A DNA stretch of 64,000 bases from an uncultured Psychroserpens sp. GTDB lineage: Bacteria; Bacteroidota; Bacteroidia; Flavobacteriales; Flavobacteriaceae. Numbering within the stretch: the stretch's first letter is position 1; each line of letters starts with the position of its first letter. Below the pieces are notes generated by a model. The model made no database searches, was not told where the DNA came from, and worked only from the letters and a program-made list of their open reading frames with translations. The stretch is taken from positions 186,001 to 250,000 of the forward strand of contig NZ_CANMVN010000003.1 of the NCBI RefSeq assembly GCF_947501425.1. The letters are read 5' to 3'. This document shows positions 29,375-61,908 of this stretch, piece by piece. The position numbers were made by a program, and so were the translations under genes.

Positions 29375-32300
29375 TCACTTTTTATTTGATGACACAATTT
29401 TCTTAAGCACGCTGCCACGATTTGTAGTAACACGAACAAATAGAATTTGGTCTTTTATATTAGATAAGTTAAACTGAGATTTACCTTCTGTATTTTTGAT
29501 ATAACCTTTAATCGTTACATCTTCTAATACCATTCCTCTGATATCCATAATTTGAATAGATACATCTGAATCAAAATCTAACTCATAAGCAATATTCACT
29601 ATATCTTTAAATGGTACAGGATATGCTTTGAAGTCAAAAGAATTATCAATCATATCTGTTATTCTATCTTTTTCACCTTCGTATTCAGTTTGCACACATA
29701 CTTCAACATCAGCATAAGCAATTAAGTAGAAATCATCTAAACAGCCATTTTGTAATACACTATTCACCGGAATAGTAATAGTAGCTGTATTACCATCATC
29801 TGAAAAACTAGAGTACGCATATTCATTAGGATCTGTGGTCTTTACACAGACTCTCCTTTCTTTAGTGGTCATTTTTCGATTACCAGTTGATGTATCTTCA
29901 CATGGAAAAGCTTCACAATCTAAATGCACATTTACATTACCTAATTCGAAATCGAAATCATCAGATAGCGAGTCGTCAACTTCGTAGGTCACAATAATGT
30001 CATTACCTTCTCTTACTAAGGTCACAGAACCGACTAACATTGCTAGAGAGTCTTCATCTGTAGGATCACAATCATTATCAGAATCTACATAAAGATCAAA
30101 CGAATAGGTATTATAATTTCCAAATTGATCTTGTGTCTCAAGGTCTAAACCACCATTGGTCCATCCCCAATCATTCTCGTACAACTGATCTGAATCTAAG
30201 AAACACCATTCGTAATCGCCTCCTGGATCTGGTGCATAAGCATAGGCATCTTCATCAACGCAACAATCTACTATTTCTACTTTGAATTTGATTCCTACTT
30301 CACAACCAGTACCAATTCCGTAAGTATAAGTTAAACCGTGAACACCTTCTCCCAGAACAGTAGGATCAAAACTATAAATACCTTTATCATCTATTACTCC
30401 TGGTCCTGAATATACTCCACCCTCTGGCTGACCACCAAATAGTGGCACATTACCGCCTTGGAGACATATGATCTCTAATGTAGGGTGTGATATTTCAATA
30501 TGTTTCTCATTAAGGATTAATGTAGCATTATATTGACAACCATTAGAATCGTAGAGACTTAATGTAATAGGAGAATCAAATACATCATAAGTAACACCAT
30601 TTAAAGGCCATGTATACGTATCACCAGGACAAACCTCAGCTTCAACAACGATATCTTCAACTTCAGGATATTCATTAATAATCAATGTTGCAGTGTAAGG
30701 GCAGCCGTTATCGTCCAGTAAGTCTAGTACTACCGGAGAATCTGCTGCACTATAGCGTATATCTGTACCTGCCAAATCCCAAGTGTATAGAGTTCCGTAA
30801 CATATAGTTACAGTTTCCTCAACATCTGGTGTCACTGGATAGGCAGTGACAGTTAGCACTGTTTTGTACGGACAGCCATTAATGTCAGTTCTGGAAATAT
30901 CATACATTCCTACACCATATTCAATACCTTCGTAGTTATACGTTTCACCTTCACAAACTTCACCTGAAGCAGTATCGTCTGGTGTTACTGGATAAGCGGT
31001 AACTGTTAATACTGTTTTATACGGACAACCATTAGCATCTACTCGTGGAATGTCATAAGAGCCAACAGCATACTCGTTGCCTTCGTAATTATATGTTTCA
31101 CCTTCACAAACTTCGCCTGAAGCGGTATCATCTGGTGTTACTGGATAGGCAGTAACGGTTAATACTGTTTTATACGGACAACCATTAGCATCTACTCGTG
31201 GAATGTCATAAGATCCAACAGCATACTCGTTGCCTTCGTAGGTATACGTTTCACCTTCACAAACTTCACCTGAAGCGGTATCGTCTGGAGTTACTGGATA
31301 GTTATTTACCGTAACTGTTGACGACACTTCCGGACATGAGCCTGAAGCCAGGAATGTATAAGTATACACATTCCCTACTGGTCCGCTCCAAATTCCGCCG
31401 CCATCTGCATTTCCGCCTAAGGCATTAAATAATTCATTATCTGTTGGTGTCACACCTTCGCAAACGGTTAATGTTCCATTTTCTCCTGGATCTGGTGCAT
31501 CATCTTCTGAAATCGTTAAAGTCGCAGTATATGGACAGCCATTACTATCTGTTAAATTTAGGATCACTGGTGAATCTGCTATGGTGTATGAATTGTTATC
31601 TACTGACCATAGATATGAATCACCTTCACAAACCGTAACATCTGTAATAATATCTGGTGTCACAGGATATGCTGAAACCGTCAACACTGTAGTGTATGGA
31701 CAACCATTAGCATCTACTTTTGGAATATCATAAGATCCAACTTCGTATTCCATTCCTTCATAAGTGAATTTATCACCTTCACAAACTTCGCCTGAAGCGG
31801 TATCATCTGGTGTTACTGGATAGGCAGTAACGGTTAATACTGTTTTATACGGACAACCATTAGCATCTACTCGTGGAATATCATAAGAGCCAACTGCATA
31901 CTCGTTGCCTTCGTAGTTATACGTTTCACCTTCACAAACGTCTCCTGAGGCTGTATCGTCTGGAGTTACTGGATAAGCAGTAACGGTTAATACTGTTTTA
32001 TACGGACAACCATTGCCATCTATTCTCGGAATATCATAAGAGCCAACAGCATACTCGTTGCCTTCGTAGTTATATGTTTCTCCTTCACAAACTTCGCCTG
32101 AAGCTGTATCATCTGGTGTTACTGGATAAGCGGTTACGGTTAGTACTGTTTTATACGGACAACCATTAGCATCTACTCGTGGAATGTCATAAGAGCCAAC
32201 AGCATACTCGTTGCCTTCGTAATTATATGTTTCACCTTCACAAACGTCTCCTGAAGCGGTATCGTCTGGTGTTACTGGATAGGCGGTAACGGTCAACACC

Positions 32301-34744
32301 GTTTTATACGGACAACCATTAGCATCTACTCGTGGAATGTCATAAGATCCAACAGCATACTCGTTGCCTTCATACGTGTAAGTCTCCCCTTCACAGACTT
32401 CGCCTGAAGCCGTATCGTCTGGTGTGACTGGATAAGCAGTAACGGTTAATACTGTTTTATACGAACAACCATTGCCATCAACTCTTGGAATATCATAAGA
32501 GCCAACAGCATACTCGTTGCCTTCGTAGTTATATGTCTCTCCTTCACAAACTTCACCTGAAGCGGTATCGTCTGGTGCCACTGGATAAGCGGTAACGGTT
32601 AATACTGTTTTATACGAACAACCATTGCCATCTACTCGTGGAATATCATAAGAGCCAACGGCATACTCGTTGCCTTCGTAGGTATACGTTTCACCTTCAC
32701 AAACTTCACCTGTAGCAATATCATCTGGTGTCACTGGATAGGCAGTTACTGTTAATACTGTTTTATACGGACAACCATTGCCATCTATTCTCGGAATATC
32801 ATAAGATCCAACAGCATACTCGTTGCCTTCGTAGTTATATGTTTCTCCTTCACAAACTTCGCCTGAAGCGGTATCGTCTGGTGTCACTGGATAAGCGGTA
32901 ACGGTTAATACTGTTTTATACGGACAACCATTGCCATCTATTCTCGGAATATCATAAGAGCCAACAGCATACTCGTTGCCTTCGTAGGTATACGTTTCAC
33001 CTTCACAAACTTCACCTGAAGCGGTATCGTCTGGAGTTACTGGATAGTTATTTACCGTAACTGTTGACGACACTTCCGGACATGAGCCTGAAGCCAGGAA
33101 TGTATAAGTATACACATTACCTACTGGTCCGCTCCAAATTCCGCCGCCATCTGCATTTCCGCCTAAGGCATTAAATAATTCATTATCTGTTGGTGTCACA
33201 CCTTCGCAAACGGTTAATGTTCCATTTTCTCCTGCATCTGGTGCATCATCTTCTGAAATCGTTAAAGTCGCAGTATATGGACAGCCATTACTATCTGTTA
33301 AATTTAGGATCACTGGTGAATCTGCTATGGTGTATGAATTGTTATCTACTGACCATAGATATGAATCACCTTCACAAACCGTAACATCTGTAATAATATC
33401 TGGTGTCACAGGATATGCTGAAACCGTCAACACTGTAGTGTATGGACAACCATTAGCATCTACTTTTGGAATATCATAAGATCCAACTTCGTATTCCATT
33501 CCTTCATAAGTGAATTTATCACCTTCACAAACTTCGCCTGAAGCGGTATCGTCTGGTGTGATATTATATTCAGTAATAGTTAGTGTAGCTGTATAAGGAC
33601 AATCATTGATGTCAGTTAAGTTTAAAACTACCGGAGAATCTGTTGCTGTATAGGTATTACCATCTACTGACCAAAAATATGAATCGCCAGAGCACACCTC
33701 AGCACTGTCATTTATATCATTAGTACCAGGCGGAGGACTTACTCCAGATACATTACCAGTACATTGGGTAGGATTCAGCGGGTCTTCACAACCAGTAGAG
33801 GGAATAACAGGAGTAATATCAATATTGAAATCAGTACCTTGATTATAAGTTAAAGTAAAAGAGCCAGATAGAGCTCCTCCACCCAAATTCCCTAGACATA
33901 CGTCACTTGAAATAGATAATGCGTTTGGATCTGTAGCACTATATTGACCATTAGCTCCATTAATTGGAACTGTTACAGAATAAGTTCCATTTGATACACA
34001 AGATACTAATGGATCTTCAACATTAAGTGAGCAGATTACTACATCACTATCTCCGCATCCAAATCTTGCCTTAAAATTGTTTATAGCTAAATCACCATCG
34101 GCATCTTGATCCCATACTGCTAAATACATATTTGCAGGTTCTAAAAAATCTTCTCCTTCAATAGGTATAGTATTCCATGTACTTGAACTTTCAACACCAC
34201 AGGCTATACGTTTAAGATCGCCACAATCTCCACTTAACTCTTGTCCATTAGCCGCCAAAGTAGTTCCTGCTTGATGAACATTTGAAGAATATAAAACCCA
34301 TGCAATGTTGTCACCAGAATTGTCATTTATCTGAATTTCAAAACTTCCTGCAAATGCCCTAACATCAAAATTTAACCAAATAATAGGTTCTCCATTTGTC
34401 GGGTTTAAAGGAAATACTGTTGTTTGGGTACTTGGATCTACACATGGTATCCCAGAAATATCAATTTCAAATTGTGTAGCATCATAAACAGAATTATTAT
34501 AAGGCATGATCTGAGATTGTGTCTCAGCAGAACTTCCACATCTAATAATACCGTTTGGAAATGCAGCATTAGGTGCGTCATCAATTGATCCACCTGGAAG
34601 CCATGTAGAGCCTTGAGTCCATCGCTGCGCACCTTCACAAGGTGTGTCATTTTGAGCAAAAGATAAATGGAAGCCAAATAGAAGTACGACCAGAAACGAT
34701 ACTCTTTTGAATACGATTTTTGGAGAAATAGCAAAGATGTTCAT
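29375..34744 (-). CDS. Large repeat-containing T9SS-secreted surface protein
   Basis: Signal peptide ending LSFAQ; thirteen 51-aa repeats; C-terminal type A sorting-like domain YPVPFKDIVNIAYELDFDSDVSIQIMDIRGMVLEDV...LFVRVTTNRGSVLKKIV. Confidence 0.92.
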   Translation of the reverse strand: MNIFAISPKIVFKRVSFLVVLLFGFHLSFAQNDTPCEGAQRWTQGSTWLPGGSIDDAPNAAFPNGIIRCGSSAETQSQIMPYNNSVYDATQFEIDISGIPCVDPSTQTTVFPLNPTNGEPIIWLNFDVRAFAGSFEIQINDNSGDNIAWVLYSSNVHQAGTTLAANGQELSGDCGDLKRIACGVESSSTWNTIPIEGEDFLEPANMYLAVWDQDADGDLAINNFKARFGCGDSDVVICSLNVEDPLVSCVSNGTYSVTVPINGANGQYSATDPNALSISSDVCLGNLGGGALSGSFTLTYNQGTDFNIDITPVIPSTGCEDPLNPTQCTGNVSGVSPPPGTNDINDSAEVCSGDSYFWSVDGNTYTATDSPVVLNLTDINDCPYTATLTITEYNITPDDTASGEVCEGDKFTYEGMEYEVGSYDIPKVDANGCPYTTVLTVSAYPVTPDIITDVTVCEGDSYLWSVDNNSYTIADSPVILNLTDSNGCPYTATLTISEDDAPDAGENGTLTVCEGVTPTDNELFNALGGNADGGGIWSGPVGNVYTYTFLASGSCPEVSSTVTVNNYPVTPDDTASGEVCEGETYTYEGNEYAVGSYDIPRIDGNGCPYKTVLTVTAYPVTPDDTASGEVCEGETYNYEGNEYAVGSYDIPRIDGNGCPYKTVLTVTAYPVTPDDIATGEVCEGETYTYEGNEYAVGSYDIPRVDGNGCSYKTVLTVTAYPVAPDDTASGEVCEGETYNYEGNEYAVGSYDIPRVDGNGCSYKTVLTVTAYPVTPDDTASGEVCEGETYTYEGNEYAVGSYDIPRVDANGCPYKTVLTVTAYPVTPDDTASGDVCEGETYNYEGNEYAVGSYDIPRVDANGCPYKTVLTVTAYPVTPDDTASGEVCEGETYNYEGNEYAVGSYDIPRIDGNGCPYKTVLTVTAYPVTPDDTASGDVCEGETYNYEGNEYAVGSYDIPRVDANGCPYKTVLTVTAYPVTPDDTASGEVCEGDKFTYEGMEYEVGSYDIPKVDANGCPYTTVLTVSAYPVTPDIITDVTVCEGDSYLWSVDNNSYTIADSPVILNLTDSNGCPYTATLTISEDDAPDPGENGTLTVCEGVTPTDNELFNALGGNADGGGIWSGPVGNVYTYTFLASGSCPEVSSTVTVNNYPVTPDDTASGEVCEGETYTYEGNEYAVGSYDIPRVDANGCPYKTVLTVTAYPVTPDDTASGEVCEGETYNYEGNEYAVGSYDIPRVDANGCPYKTVLTVTAYPVTPDDTASGEVCEGETYNYEGIEYGVGMYDISRTDINGCPYKTVLTVTAYPVTPDVEETVTICYGTLYTWDLAGTDIRYSAADSPVVLDLLDDNGCPYTATLIINEYPEVEDIVVEAEVCPGDTYTWPLNGVTYDVFDSPITLSLYDSNGCQYNATLILNEKHIEISHPTLEIICLQGGNVPLFGGQPEGGVYSGPGVIDDKGIYSFDPTVLGEGVHGLTYTYGIGTGCEVGIKFKVEIVDCCVDEDAYAYAPDPGGDYEWCFLDSDQLYENDWGWTNGGLDLETQDQFGNYNTYSFDLYVDSDNDCDPTDEDSLAMLVGSVTLVREGNDIIVTYEVDDSLSDDFDFELGNVNVHLDCEAFPCEDTSTGNRKMTTKERRVCVKTTDPNEYAYSSFSDDGNTATITIPVNSVLQNGCLDDFYLIAYADVEVCVQTEYEGEKDRITDMIDNSFDFKAYPVPFKDIVNIAYELDFDSDVSIQIMDIRGMVLEDVTIKGYIKNTEGKSQFNLSNIKDQILFVRVTTNRGSVLKKIVSSNKK
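30843..33569 (-). repeat. Tandem 153-bp (51-aa) repeat array inside the T9SS protein, with two inserted 123-aa modules
   Basis: Consensus YPVTPDDTASGEVCEGETYNYEGNEYAVGSYDIPRVDANGCPYKTVLTVTA counted 13 times. Confidence 0.92.
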
Positions 34745-41366: not shown

Positions 41367-42098
41367 CTATGCATTTGCTTTTTGCTTACTTGAAGCTAAG
41401 GCATATATTACTAAACCAAAACCAATTTTGTTGATTGCATCTGCGATGTTATAGGCAACATCAACACTTCCAGATCCAAGTATGCTTGTATACCATCCGT
41501 CTGTTCCCAGCATATATCCTAAAGGATAGATTGCCCATCCAACTAATACAAACCAACATAATATTTTATGTGCTTTTAGTATTTCTCCTCCTGCGGCAAC
41601 AGCCAATTTTTTAGCGCTTCCTAACCAAATTTCATACACAATGTAGAAGTAAGCCAATCCAGAGATACCACCCCAAAGAGCTGCCTGATCTGGATATACA
41701 GCCTCTCCAAAGTATCCGGTTACTAACATGATTACAGAAAATAAGATCATTTTCCACATCAATGATTGTTTAGCTCCAGCCACTTTAAGAATTAAGTAAA
41801 ATTCCACACACATCAACGGTACAGTTAAAATCCAATCTACATATCTGAAAAATGTAGGTGATTCCATATTTGCCGCCCAATAATCTCTCATGTAGAAGTA
41901 GTGTACAGCAGCAATGAATGTAATTAAACCAGAGACGAGCACCGAAGTGCGCCATTTTCTATCAAATTGGTTAAGAGATAAAAAGAAAAACGCTGAAGCA
42001 GCCATCATAGCCATACAGCCTACAAAAAATGTGAACCCAACATAATCAGAAGGATCCATTTTTGTAGTAACGTCAGTTAGAAGTAAAAGAGTTTTCAT
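41367..42098 (-). CDS. Proteorhodopsin (light-driven proton pump type)
   Basis: RYVDWILTVPLMCVEFYLIL (D97/T101/M105/E108 by proteorhodopsin numbering), His in AAVHYFYMRDYW, retinal Lys in INKIGFGLVIYAL. Confidence 0.95.
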   Translation of the reverse strand: MKTLLLLTDVTTKMDPSDYVGFTFFVGCMAMMAASAFFFLSLNQFDRKWRTSVLVSGLITFIAAVHYFYMRDYWAANMESPTFFRYVDWILTVPLMCVEFYLILKVAGAKQSLMWKMILFSVIMLVTGYFGEAVYPDQAALWGGISGLAYFYIVYEIWLGSAKKLAVAAGGEILKAHKILCWFVLVGWAIYPLGYMLGTDGWYTSILGSGSVDVAYNIADAINKIGFGLVIYALASSKQKANA

Positions 42099-42159: not shown

Positions 42160-42214
42160 TTATTTTATTTTTAACAAAATTTTTAGTTATTAATTATTAA
42201 TCTTGCAAATAATT

Positions 42215-43102
42215 ATGTATAAAATTTATAATCTTTCAATAGTTCTTAGTTTTTTCGGTTTATGGGTGACATCCCTATTTCCGGGAGAGCTTGAAGTTGT
42301 TTTAGGATTTATTTTTATTTTCTCTTTTGGTATTTTGCATGGATCCAACGATATTTTACTTATTAATTCTATGTCAAACCCTAAAACCAGATTTCCAATG
42401 TTCAGGGTTTTATTCACGTACATCATAATTGTTTTAGCAGCTGTAGTTGTATTCTACTTTTTACCTTTGTTGGGGTTGATACTTTTTGTCCTTTTTAGTG
42501 CATTTCATTTTGGTGAACAGCATTGGGAACACAGAACATTATCCATTTCTAAAGGCTTGAAACAACTCCTTTACATACTGTACGGACTGTTTGTATTACA
42601 GTTATTGTTTGTATTAAATCCTGATGATGTGATTGAGGTTGTTCAATCTATTTCTGGATATATTTTGGAAGAATCTTTGATTCTTTACTCATTTATTAGC
42701 AATAGCATTGCGCTGTTGGTATTAATCATTATTTTATTATTGAAATCGGAGGTGTTTAAAAATAGTTTGATAAAGGAACTCCTTTATTTAATGGTGTTTA
42801 CTATTATATTCAAAGTATCAACACTTATTTGGGGCTTTACTATTTATTTCATTCTCTGGCATAGTGTGCCCTCTCTTTATGAGCAGGTTGGTTTTATTTA
42901 TGGAACATTCAACAAAAAAAATGTATTGAACTATTGCAAAAAAGCACTTCCCTATTGGATTATATCACTTGTAAGCATAGCATTGGTCTATGTATTATTT
43001 AAAGAGAGAGCTATGTTTTATGCTTTGTTTTTTTCATTTATCGCTGCTGTAACATTTCCACATGCATTAGTGATCAATAAAATGTTTAGTCATAAAACAT
43101 AA
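42215..43102 (+). CDS. blh: Brp/Blh family beta-carotene 15,15'-dioxygenase
   Basis: LHGSNDILLINS, SAFHFGEQHWEHR, LWHSVPSLYEQ, FPHALVINKMF; ATG start preferred over TTG in ORF track. Confidence 0.9.
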   Translation: MYKIYNLSIVLSFFGLWVTSLFPGELEVVLGFIFIFSFGILHGSNDILLINSMSNPKTRFPMFRVLFTYIIIVLAAVVVFYFLPLLGLILFVLFSAFHFGEQHWEHRTLSISKGLKQLLYILYGLFVLQLLFVLNPDDVIEVVQSISGYILEESLILYSFISNSIALLVLIIILLLKSEVFKNSLIKELLYLMVFTIIFKVSTLIWGFTIYFILWHSVPSLYEQVGFIYGTFNKKNVLNYCKKALPYWIISLVSIALVYVLFKERAMFYALFFSFIAAVTFPHALVINKMFSHKT

Positions 43103-56924: not shown

Positions 56925-59093
56925 ATGTCCACAGAAACTAAACGCTCAAAAAAATGGTTAAGAACCTTAAAGTTTCTAGCGGCTTACTTGGTCGCTGCAT
57001 GGACATTTCTACAATTTATTGATTGGATATTAAATCGCTACAACATTTCACCTTACTGGGTAGATGTTTTACTTTGGATATTTATTGGCATCATTCCATC
57101 TTTACTAATCTATTTGCATCATCAAGAGCGGATTAATAAACGTATTCTGAAGCTTAGAGAAATTATTATTTTTCCACTAAATGCTTTAATCCTTATTCTC
57201 GTTATATACTTTGGCTTTGGCAACAGTGACTTAGGGGCTACCACTAAAGAAATAAAATACACTAACGAAAGTGGAAAAACAGAAACAAAGACAATTACCA
57301 AAGAAGAGTTTAGAGTTGGTATTCCAATTTACGGTTTCAAACAAATTACTCCAGACACAACTTATTCTTGGCTACGCTATGGCATTGGACGTTTATTAGA
57401 AGAAGATTTACTTCAAAATAAAAATATTAGTCCAAATTTCGATTTTTTAACTAATACAACAACTAAAATAAGAGAAGCCTCATTATTCTATAATTTCTAT
57501 ATAGATGGTACTTATGAAAAAGTAGGAAAAGATTTCAAAATCACTACTCATATCAGGAAAGCTAGGAATGGCAAAATTTTAAAAGAGCAAACCTTTACTG
57601 GACCAAATATTTTAACGCTCTTAGATGATATTAGTGTATTTATCACATCTAATTCGGGCTTTGTGGAAAGCAACTCATTAACATACTTAGACCTTCCTAT
57701 AAATGAGTTTATAAGCAATTCTCTGCCTGCCTTGAAAGCTTATGCTGATAACAACTACAGAAAAGCATATGATATCGACAAAGGTTTTGCTCTAGCATAT
57801 TTACAAGAGGCAAAACGCAATACTAAATACAACAGAGGAAAACTAGAAACGCAAGATATAATTGATAAAGCTGTAACGTTAAAAAATAAACTTCCATTAC
57901 AGAAACAACTTGAAATATTCATTCAGAGAAATATTGCTTACGGCAATTTTGAAGAAGCCGAAGAACAAGTAAAACTACAACTAGAAGTTGACCCAAACAA
58001 TGAGTTTTATAATCAAGTACTGTATGCCATTTATGGAGAAACAAAAAACACAAAAGCATACTTAACAGCTTCTGAAGATTTATTTAATAAAAATCCTTCA
58101 GCTTTTAACGGACTGACTCTGGCAGAGGCAGCAATGCTTAATGGTGAAGATGATAAAATAATAGAAGGCCTTAAAACCTATGAATTAATCAATCCTGAAA
58201 TTAAAGCTCTCAAATTAGAACCTCTAATTTTTAAAGGCCAAATTAATGATGCAAAATCTTTATTTGAAGAATACAAATTAGGAAATCCTAACAACGTACG
58301 TAATAGAGCTTATGATTCTATATTTTCCTATTTACAAAATCATAACCTTGAAGATCTAGATATGAATGAATTTGTTGGTCTTTACCGTTCAGAATCTAAT
58401 GAGGCTCTCATTGAATATTGGATCAATAACGGTAGATTAATTCAATATGAAAAGAATCAGGATATGCGTACCTTATTACCAGCAGGCAAAGACGCCATAG
58501 CTGGAGGCTTTGTTAATGATCTCACTTTTCACTACCAAATAATTAGAAGTGAAAACGGCAAACCTATTGGACTCAAATCTACTCTTTTTGATTGGTCAAA
58601 AAGCTATAATAGGTTTTATTGGAAGTTAGATAGTAGTATTCTAGAAGCTAATGAAGCCTTTGAGAATAATCAACTAAAATTAGCAGATTCTCTTTACAAA
58701 ATAGCTATTGACAATAATCCTAAACATGCCTTTTTAAAAAACATACAAGAGCATATTAGATACACAGGGACCATCTCTACCGATTCTCTACTGCTACAAC
58801 ACCAAAAGTTTTCAGGATCCTATGGTCCAAGAAGATTTTGGATTGAAGATGGTAAGTTTTACTACAAGAGAAAAGATGAAAATAGCGACTTGGTAAAGGT
58901 TGAATTATTGGCTATAAATGAAAATCGATATATGGATTTAACAAGATTAGGTACAATTATGGCGTTTGAAAATGATAATTCTGGAAAAGTAGCCTCTAAA
59001 TCTTACAGCTATGCTATAGGTGAAGAACTAAAATTTGAATGGGGTTTCTTTGTCAATGAAACTGTTAATAATTATTTCCCTAAAGATGATTAA
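56925..59093 (+). CDS. TM-anchored TPR protein
   Basis: Three N-terminal TM segments, then TPR-like EEAEEQVKLQLEVDPNNEFYNQVLYAIYGETKN. Confidence 0.7.
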   Translation: MSTETKRSKKWLRTLKFLAAYLVAAWTFLQFIDWILNRYNISPYWVDVLLWIFIGIIPSLLIYLHHQERINKRILKLREIIIFPLNALILILVIYFGFGNSDLGATTKEIKYTNESGKTETKTITKEEFRVGIPIYGFKQITPDTTYSWLRYGIGRLLEEDLLQNKNISPNFDFLTNTTTKIREASLFYNFYIDGTYEKVGKDFKITTHIRKARNGKILKEQTFTGPNILTLLDDISVFITSNSGFVESNSLTYLDLPINEFISNSLPALKAYADNNYRKAYDIDKGFALAYLQEAKRNTKYNRGKLETQDIIDKAVTLKNKLPLQKQLEIFIQRNIAYGNFEEAEEQVKLQLEVDPNNEFYNQVLYAIYGETKNTKAYLTASEDLFNKNPSAFNGLTLAEAAMLNGEDDKIIEGLKTYELINPEIKALKLEPLIFKGQINDAKSLFEEYKLGNPNNVRNRAYDSIFSYLQNHNLEDLDMNEFVGLYRSESNEALIEYWINNGRLIQYEKNQDMRTLLPAGKDAIAGGFVNDLTFHYQIIRSENGKPIGLKSTLFDWSKSYNRFYWKLDSSILEANEAFENNQLKLADSLYKIAIDNNPKHAFLKNIQEHIRYTGTISTDSLLLQHQKFSGSYGPRRFWIEDGKFYYKRKDENSDLVKVELLAINENRYMDLTRLGTIMAFENDNSGKVASKSYSYAIGEELKFEWGFFVNETVNNYFPKDD

Positions 59094-59191
59094 TCACCCC
59101 AACCAACCCTCACGATCCATACTGCGGTATTGAATGGCTTCGGAAATGTGAGCGTCATTAATATTCATTAACATAAAAGATCTGAATGACT
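59094..59191 (-). pseudogene. Fossil 3' end of comM/yifB (clear to about 59165, degraded to about 59191)
   Basis: Translation [22 protein letters not shown] versus real com[23 protein letters not shown]. Confidence 0.88.
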
Positions 59192-59322
59192 TTTAATTAC
59201 ATTAATTCTATTTGAAACAGATAATATCTTTTCAACTTTTTATAATAATATATATATTGGTAAAATTTGATAAAAAAATATAGGGAGGGCTTAATATCAA
59301 AAAGGGAGAGTCAAATTGTTTT

Positions 59323-59739
59323 CTAAATACCTGCTATATAGACAGCGGGATTTTCACAAACTTCAGCACAGCCTCCATTATCAGCACATTCTAGTATCGC
59401 TACGGCAGCACATTTTTTTGTGGGACAAATGGTATAACTGGTTTCGTTTCCTTCGTCATCAAAACACGCTATATGGAATCTGTCACCTTGTGTTCTTTGT
59501 AAATTTCCATTAGACTCCAAAATTCTTATTGAAGTTAGATAGTAAGTGTCAGAACGTTTAGTAATTGTAAAAGCGACATCTGCATTATTATTTATTCTAC
59601 TGTAATCTTCTACTTCGGATAATAAAACTTCTAATGGGTCTTCAATAGTTAATTCTTTTGTTTCGTCAGACTTATTGAATCCAAAACTTAGAGTAGTTAC
59701 AAATGCAACTAAACATAATTTAATAAATGTATTTTTCAT
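59323..59739 (-). CDS. Small exported cysteine-rich protein, paralog of next
   Basis: Signal peptide MKNTFIKLCLVAFVTTLSFG; GDRFHIACFDDEGNETSYTICPTKKCAAVAILECADNGGCAEVCENPA. Confidence 0.75.
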   Translation of the reverse strand: MKNTFIKLCLVAFVTTLSFGFNKSDETKELTIEDPLEVLLSEVEDYSRINNNADVAFTITKRSDTYYLTSIRILESNGNLQRTQGDRFHIACFDDEGNETSYTICPTKKCAAVAILECADNGGCAEVCENPAVYIAGI

Positions 59740-59748
59740 ATTTAAGTT

Positions 59749-60231
59749 TTAATTGATATTGTTAGGTGTATAAGTGATTTTGGCTTTGTTATTACATACA
59801 TTTGCACAACCACCACCTTCAAGGCAGTCCCAAGTTGCTTGACCAGCACAGCCGACATCTTCACCACATTCTGTTACTACTGATTCACCATCACCATATG
59901 TACAAGTTACTTGATAGTCATCCCCTGGACCACGATTTAGATTTTCAGTACCGTTTACAAAATCCATTACTTTTGCAGAATTTTCAATAATTTCAATAAA
60001 ACCTAAATAATCATCTTTCTTAAGATTAGCAAACTCATAGGTTACTATCTTACTATTTTCATCTCCTAAAACTTTCATTTTGGAAACAACTTTATCAATC
60101 CTTAATCTCAGTTCTTCAGATGAAATATTTTCGGGATTGGATTCTTTTTCACACGAAGTGAAGTTTAGTGCAAATGCACAAAGTAGAAGTACTAAAAAGT
60201 ACCTCGAATGATAATGAAATAATTCTTTCAT
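59749..60231 (-). CDS. Small cysteine-rich lipoprotein, paralog of previous
   Basis: Lipobox LNFTSC; GDDYQVTCTYGDGESVVTECGEDVGCAGQATWDCLEGGGCANVCNNKA; 9 bp from next gene. Confidence 0.75.
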   Translation of the reverse strand: MKELFHYHSRYFLVLLLCAFALNFTSCEKESNPENISSEELRLRIDKVVSKMKVLGDENSKIVTYEFANLKKDDYLGFIEIIENSAKVMDFVNGTENLNRGPGDDYQVTCTYGDGESVVTECGEDVGCAGQATWDCLEGGGCANVCNNKAKITYTPNNIN

Positions 60232-60369
60232 ATTAAAAAATTTAATGCCTCATTAAAGGTCTTAGGCTGTTAATTACGACCTTTCAAACTAATATTCAGC
60301 TTGTTAAAATATTTAATTTACAATTTATTTTTTAAATGAGATTTAATTACTAGAATAAAAACTATTAAA

Positions 60370-61908
60370 TTACCCCAACCAACCTTCCCTATCCATACTG
60401 CGATATTGTATGGCTTCGGAAATATGAGTACCATTAATAGTTTCAGAACCTTCCAGATCTGCAATGGTTCTCGACACTTTAAGAATACGATCATAAGCCC
60501 TTGCCGATAAGTTCAGTTGTTCCATCGCGTTTTTTAACAAGGTCATAGATGCGTTATCCAACTTACAATGCTTTCTAATCTGTTTCGTATTCATTTGTGC
60601 ATTATAATGTACAGTTTCCGAAGAAGAAAAACGTAAGGTTTGTACCATTCTGGCCTCAGTTACTCGTTTCCGAATCTCGACTGAAGACTCCCCTTTTCGA
60701 TCATCAGACAATTTATCAAAAGGTACTGGTGTCACTTCAATATGAATATCTATACGATCTAATAAGGGTCCAGACACCTTACTCAAATACCGTTGCATTT
60801 CCGCAGGAGACGATGTTACTGGTGCATTAGGATCATTGAAATAACCACTAGGACTCGGATTCATACTCGCTACCAACATAAACGACGATGGATAAGTAAC
60901 GGTAAACTTAGCTCTCGAAATCGTAACCTCTCGATCTTCCAGAGGTTGACGCATGACTTCCAAAACCTCCCGCTTAAATTCTGGCAATTCATCTAAAAAC
61001 AAAACACCATTATGTGATAAGGAAATTTCACCTGGTTGTGGATAACTGCCACCACCAACCAAAGCCACATTGGAAATAGTATGGTGCGGACTTCTAAATG
61101 GACGCTGAGACATCAAACCTGTATGCGCTTTGACTCGACCTACTACTGAATGAATTTTGGTTGTTTCTAAAGCTTCATGTAATGTCATTGGTGGTAAAAT
61201 ACTAGGTAAACGCTTTGCTAACATCGTTTTTCCTGCACCTGGCGGACCTATTAAAATAATATTATGCCCACCAGCTGCTGCAATTTCCATACAACGCTTA
61301 ATGCTTTCCTGACCTTTGACATCACTAAAATCAAATTCTGGAAAATCCAATTTCTTATAAAACTCCTCTCGTGTATTAATGATTGTTTGTTCTAAAGGTT
61401 GGGCTTTATCAAAATAGTTAATCACCTGAATGATGTTGTCAACACCATAAACATCCAAGCCATCAACAATAGCAGCTTCTTTAGCGTTTTGCTTCGGAAG
61501 AATAAATCCCTTATACCCTTCTTCTTTGGCTTTGATTGCAATTGGGAGCGCTCCTTTTATAGGTTGCAAATTTCCGTCAAGTGATAATTCACCCATGATG
61601 AGATATTCATCCAGTTGTTCTGCTTTTATTTGCTTGGACGCTACAAGGATTCCAATAGCTAAAGTGAGATCATAGGCAGAGCCCTCTTTACGAAGATCGG
61701 CAGGTGACATATTGATTATGATCTTTTTCCCAGGAATTTTATAGCCATTGTTTTGAAGTGCTGCAGCAATTCGAAAATTACTTTCTTTAATAGCATTATC
61801 AGGTAATCCAACCAGATGGTAACCTATTCCAGAATCAATATTAACCTCTACAGTAATTGTAGTGGCTTCAACACCAAAAACGGCACTTCCAAAGACTTTT
61901 TTGAGCAT
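60370..61908 (-). CDS. comM: YifB family Mg chelatase-like AAA ATPase (ComM)
   Basis: [70 protein letters not shown]. Confidence 0.95.

Follow-up and report, generated by a model that had tools for sequence, protein, structure and literature searches.

Two related six-cysteine exported proteins of an undescribed flavobacterial family, carried by a small unit inserted at the 3' end of yifB

Two adjacent genes for small, cysteine-rich exported proteins lie next to yifB in an uncultured Psychroserpens sp. (contig NZ_CANMVN010000003.1), and they raise the question of what they encode, how they came to this position and what they might do for the cell. The window is the whole stretch of DNA analysed, 64,000 nucleotides of this genome (G000), and coordinates below refer to it. 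The original prediction described the two genes as exported paralogues of an unrecognised family within a recently acquired segment, all of which stands, and among its possible readings named an effector/immunity pair and a surface module. The tandem open reading frames were confirmed, with B preceding A and a gap of 9 bp:

59323..59739, minus strand: gene A, 138 aa; signal peptide without a lipobox cysteine (LSFGF), short N-terminal domain, six-cysteine module
59749..60231, minus strand: gene B, 160 aa; lipoprotein (LNFTSC), short N-terminal domain, six-cysteine module

Elsewhere in the window, inspection by eye identified a 1789-aa exported, adhesin-like protein with 153-bp repeats (29375-34744), and a rhodopsin-like gene (41367-42098) that is divergent from a membrane-protein gene (42203-43102), which may be its retinal-forming partner.

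The C-terminal module predicted to be common to A and B is real, as an independent profile matches both proteins. It reads GDRFHIACFDDEGNETSYTICPTKKCAAVAILECADNGGCAEVCENPA in A and GDDYQVTCTYGDGESVVTECGEDVGCAGQATWDCLEGGGCANVCNNKA in B, the spacing ahead of the second cysteine (C2) differing by one residue. With A as a tblastn query against the whole genome, B was matched at E 6e-5, and an HMM built only from members outside the genus matched B at E 3e-22 and A at E 5e-10 (Z=4000); the similarity is therefore not a product of chance. The N-termini had been described as unrelated-looking, whereas homology of the N-terminal halves is now suggested, if not established: the full-length alignments to the out-of-genus HMM run on into the N-terminal halves of both proteins, and an HMM of the N-terminal half only scored above all shuffles for the A protein of the congener G005 and for neither window protein.

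Judged from their sequences, A and B belong to a so far undescribed family of small lipoproteins exported by the Sec route and found in Flavobacteriales and near relatives. Typical members are lipoproteins 140-210 aa long that carry the signature YxVxC..G..W...C.GK.SCG.LI..CLDEGGCA.VC; in many of them a strand such as Y.P....FY comes next. No meaningful match was obtained in Pfam, NCBIfam, PHROGs or PADLOC, and no housekeeping family was thus found in Pfam or NCBIfam to account for the pair. The fold search with two AlphaFold models gave no match, no homologue was found in plasmid and phage records or viral contigs, and the literature search returned no description of the family. A clear match to the module (E < 1e-14) was present in 12 of the 400 genomes sampled from the taxonomic family; the order sample gave 6 of 398, and the phylum sample one genome besides the pair's own among 396. 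Matches of the family search at E 1e-4 to 1e-3 were dropped, as they cover the signal-peptide end only. Named carriers include Tenacibaculum aiptasiae, Lacinutrix jangbogonensis, Flavobacterium microcysteis, an uncultured Aquimarina and an uncultured Cellulophaga, most carrier genomes having a single member. Synteny at the site, which would have counted against the original prediction, is not conserved among the carriers, and the neighbours of family members share isolated coincidences only.

The cysteines of the module offer a view of its probable fold. Exactly six are present in 20 of the 26 module sequences, while one sequence has seven and one has five. The four remaining modules have four cysteines, C2 and C3 being absent from three of them (including both proteins of G323, a genome of another genus) and C5 and C6 from one. 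This pairwise loss suggests C2-C3 and C5-C6 disulfides, leaving C1-C4 by exclusion, and the module is probably held by these three bonds. The structure models reach a modest mean pLDDT of 66 and 74, and the bonding pattern is accordingly put forward from the cysteine losses. Neither G000 nor G005 yielded a VKOR-type oxidase. The module resembles the EGF-like domain of the LDL receptor in a short run like C..NGGC..VC.N and in having six cysteines in ∼45 residues. EGF-like domains are bonded 1-3, 2-4 and 5-6. EGF-like identity was rejected, as the paired losses of C2 with C3 and of C5 with C6 do not fit such bonds, the PDB sequence profile search gave only chance-level EGF stretches of ∼16 positions, and Pfam gave no match.

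Sequence inspection located a lipobox signal peptide in B and in nearly all homologues. The predicted contrast between a signal-peptide protein A and a lipoprotein B holds in the window as a local change and does not extend to the family: where A of G005 has LNFNC, window A has LSFGF, with phenylalanine in place of the lipobox cysteine. In G005 and G323, A and B are lipoproteins alike, which leaves the argument built on contrasting N-termini weaker. Surface lipoproteins of Bacteroidota carry a published export motif, C-X-K-(D/E)2, after the cysteine (PMC5080379). The family is like them in that polar or acidic residues follow the lipobox cysteine in nearly all members, and unlike them in that the published signals are matched loosely and window A has no such cysteine; CEKESN in B resembles the motif without being identical to it (PMC5080379). 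We infer from these signals that A and B would be displayed at the cell surface.

The B-A tandem was found in identical order in three genomes of two genera, namely G000, G005 and G323. In the tree, the A proteins form one group (85/86) and the B proteins another (93/89), which places the duplication before the split of the two genera. Within the A/B clade proper, the genes are in tandem in all three genomes other than G234, where a B-type gene is present without an A-type gene; in G047, a relative without the cysteines adjoins a family member. Between G000 and G005, A and B share ∼55% amino acid identity and yifB 92%, so that the pair is far more divergent. The dN/dS values of the two genes are ∼0.18 and 0.165, with dS near saturation, and demonstrate purifying selection on both.

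The surroundings of the pair in the window bear out the cassette-like location and recent acquisition that had been proposed, through duplicated yifB ends and empty sites in relatives:

59092..60439, no strand: inserted unit, including the yifB-end repeats at its borders, which are spaced 1276 bp apart
60368..60439, minus strand: attached yifB 3'-end copy, probably imported with the unit (repeat comparison)
59092..59163, minus strand: displaced (native) yifB 3'-end copy, with a 36-nt core identical to the yifB end of G005
60370..61908, minus strand: yifB/comM, encoding a Mg chelatase-like AAA ATPase; the gene at which the unit inserted
56925..59093, plus strand: 722-aa gene outside the unit, found after an intact yifB in G014, G020 and G021 and marking the native side

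The bounding repeats are two copies of the yifB 3' end, 72 nt long, 86% identical and 1,276 bp apart, and they form the only direct repeat of at least 45 nt in the window outside one repetitive gene. The empty arrangement is preserved in the three congeners G014, G020 and G021, where the 722-aa gene lies 42-47 bp past a marker in the yifB end; in G000 it lies 46 bp past the same marker in the displaced copy. The yifB end of G005 is matched exactly by the core of the displaced copy and not by the attached copy, so that the latter was probably brought in with the unit. In G009, a 756-bp yifB unit is followed by a downstream spacing of 54 bp, equal to that of the empty site in G008.

Insertions have recurred at the yifB 3' end. 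Displaced fragments occur in 5 of the 25 genus genomes (one of them degenerate) and in G070, which belongs to another family:

59092-60439 in the window, and L046, L048, L056, L059 and L063: loci with a displaced yifB 3' fragment

The displaced fragments lie 0.76-3.9 kb downstream, and the cargo differs between units. In G070 it is an OLD/GajA-like gene, and in G004 (L046:3748-5923) a gene for a 514-aa cysteine-rich lipoprotein-like product is followed by one for a DUF6705 protein. G004 and G007 (L165, L164) have similar stretches of ∼60 bp immediately upstream of their displaced copies, e.g. CAAATTTrTTAGCwGCTGTTGATyATG, which are possibly a common element end. No integrase was noticed in these units or among the open reading frames of the window unit. 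As the repeat lengths differ between genomes, the candidate mechanisms are integrase action, a circle recombining through yifB homology, and import from a unit-bearing donor. A recombination breakpoint inside yifB was sought and could not be located, as the compared species are too divergent (∼80% at the nucleotide level).

The pair occupies a different position in G005, where it lies between rpoD and rpe, two genes that adjoin each other in 23 of the 25 genus genomes, G000 included. The sequence GCTGATTACTyTGGGTTCA, which forms the 3' half of the rpoD terminator, occurs there twice at a distance of 2,527 bp; on the left it restores the terminator, and on the right it leads into the native rpe leader, as seen by comparison with G012. 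The yifB unit of G000 and the rpoD-terminator unit of G005 therefore represent independent insertions of the same pair at two different sites. Within the 2,527-bp unit is a 130-aa integrase-like remnant with a weak PHROG match (E 0.069) and no Pfam match; in our own reading, it appears to retain tyrosine-recombinase-like residues (RHT...GH...Y). An unrelated insert in the rpoD-rpe gap of G023 (L201:9223-10239) carries a 338-aa gene, Fic-like by eye, and from this insert the gap may be a recurrent target like yifB.

Units that restore a gene 3' end are recognised by a host-end repeat at both borders and by empty sites in relatives, and both features were observed at yifB in G000 and at the rpoD terminator in G005. 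A known case is SGI1, a genomic island that inserts at the 3' end of trmE and restores the gene end (PMC8409611). The units described here share with SGI1-type islands the 3'-end direct repeat at the borders, the displaced native copy, the intact host gene and the empty sites; they differ in measuring 0.76-3.9 kb and in having no recognisable integrase at yifB, the sole integrase trace being the decayed remnant in the G005 unit (PMC8409611). The literature search found no description of yifB or rpoD as insertion points in Bacteroidota.

A conserved leader accompanies the pair at both sites:

60256..60283, minus strand: palindrome AAGGTC-N16-GACCTT within the B leader and conserved in G005

It lies just upstream of B in G000 and G005 and is better conserved than its flanks. 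Among the 25 genus genomes, exact matches were limited to the two pair loci; one palindrome-like site in G003, with three mismatches, is at the level of the reversed control. The palindrome is a candidate operator or leader hairpin moving with the pair.

With regard to function, we tentatively favour the reading that the pair forms a mobile module for surface recognition or shielding, built from two related disulfide-stapled lipoproteins; as a whole statement this is plausible yet short of probable. B and A would form an operon, preceded by a palindromic leader of its own, and would travel together as cargo inside units that insert at gene 3' ends and then rebuild them. Each protein would consist of a lipid anchor, a short N-terminal domain and a compact disulfide-held module, and A and B, perhaps as a complex, would sit on the outer membrane as a small protease-resistant module with a protective role, altering which competitors, phages or ligands engage the surface. 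Such a role would account for the pair being accessory, divergent and mobile. The reading is supported by the out-of-genus homology, the lipobox with its polar or acidic residues, the paired cysteine loss, the A and B clades across two genera, the low dN/dS, the two insertion sites and the palindrome at the pair loci. Against it, known surface or protective proteins gave no structural or family match to A or B, the models are of limited confidence, the export signal is matched loosely and is without its cysteine in window A, and VKOR-type oxidases are missing from the G000 and G005 results.

Two alternatives are partly special cases of this surface-module idea. In an effector/immunity pair, which we consider unlikely, one paralogue would be a released or surface toxin and the other would neutralise it; in the window, A would be the released protein, as it lacks the lipobox cysteine, and B the anchored one, in the manner of BcpT and BcpI. 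The B-A tandem, stable across three genomes from two genera, agrees with this, as do the mobility and export of the pair. In Bacteroidales, the toxin BcpT and its immunity protein BcpI are lipoproteins encoded on a mobile plasmid, and like A and B they are adjacent, mobile and accessory in Bacteroidota; unlike them, they have no six-cysteine module and are not paralogues, BcpT being a proteolytically activated protein of 499 aa and BcpI one of 57 aa (PMC9308784). The effector/immunity reading was not demonstrated for A and B: the genes do not always occur together, and the lone members, including most homologues and the B-type gene of G234, argue against it for the family as a whole. It is unusual for a toxin and its immunity protein to be full-length paralogues under comparable constraint, whereas the two paralogues here are similarly constrained, and the toxin and defence families searched gave no match. 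Phage or mobile-element exclusion, in which surface lipoproteins block a receptor or DNA entry as cargo of the elements they protect, we likewise judge improbable. Small mobile lipoproteins with such action are known, an integrase-like remnant adjoins the pair in G005, and the similar yifB-bounded unit of G070 holds the OLD/GajA-like gene; against it, neither the phage, plasmid and viral sequences nor PADLOC yielded a relative.

A peptide-export cluster (double-glycine leader, C39/VKOR) with the module as a disulfide-stapled secreted peptide is very improbable: the uncultured Aquimarina member (L106:5211-8886) is flanked by two small GG-leader cysteine peptides with a C39-VKOR-thioredoxin gene upstream, and in one MAG (L110:2600-2971, contig of L078) the first ∼64 C39 peptidase residues are fused in frame to the module, but that fusion comes from one small contig only and may be gene decay, a real fusion or misassembly, VKOR is absent from most carriers tested, and the reading is disfavoured by the Sec/lipobox signals of the members and a C39/VKOR link confined to one or two genomes. 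Identity as a double-glycine leader peptide was rejected on those signals, the absence of an NCBIfam match and the position of the genome's own C39 exporter gene, unlinked on another contig.

The surface recognition or shielding reading has a bolder form, distinctly doubtful, in which B-A would be a new kind of mobile, self-regulated, disulfide-stapled two-protein module gating or shielding the flavobacterial surface, carried by tiny 3'-end-restoring units that depend on recombination functions provided in trans. The analysis defines an undescribed family, offers a disulfide pattern that can be tested and a conserved control palindrome, and allows a natural with/without comparison within one genus. 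Two places where small accessory units insert in these bacteria also emerge, the yifB 3' end and the rpoD terminator, and these can help to locate surface and defence cargo that current family libraries miss.
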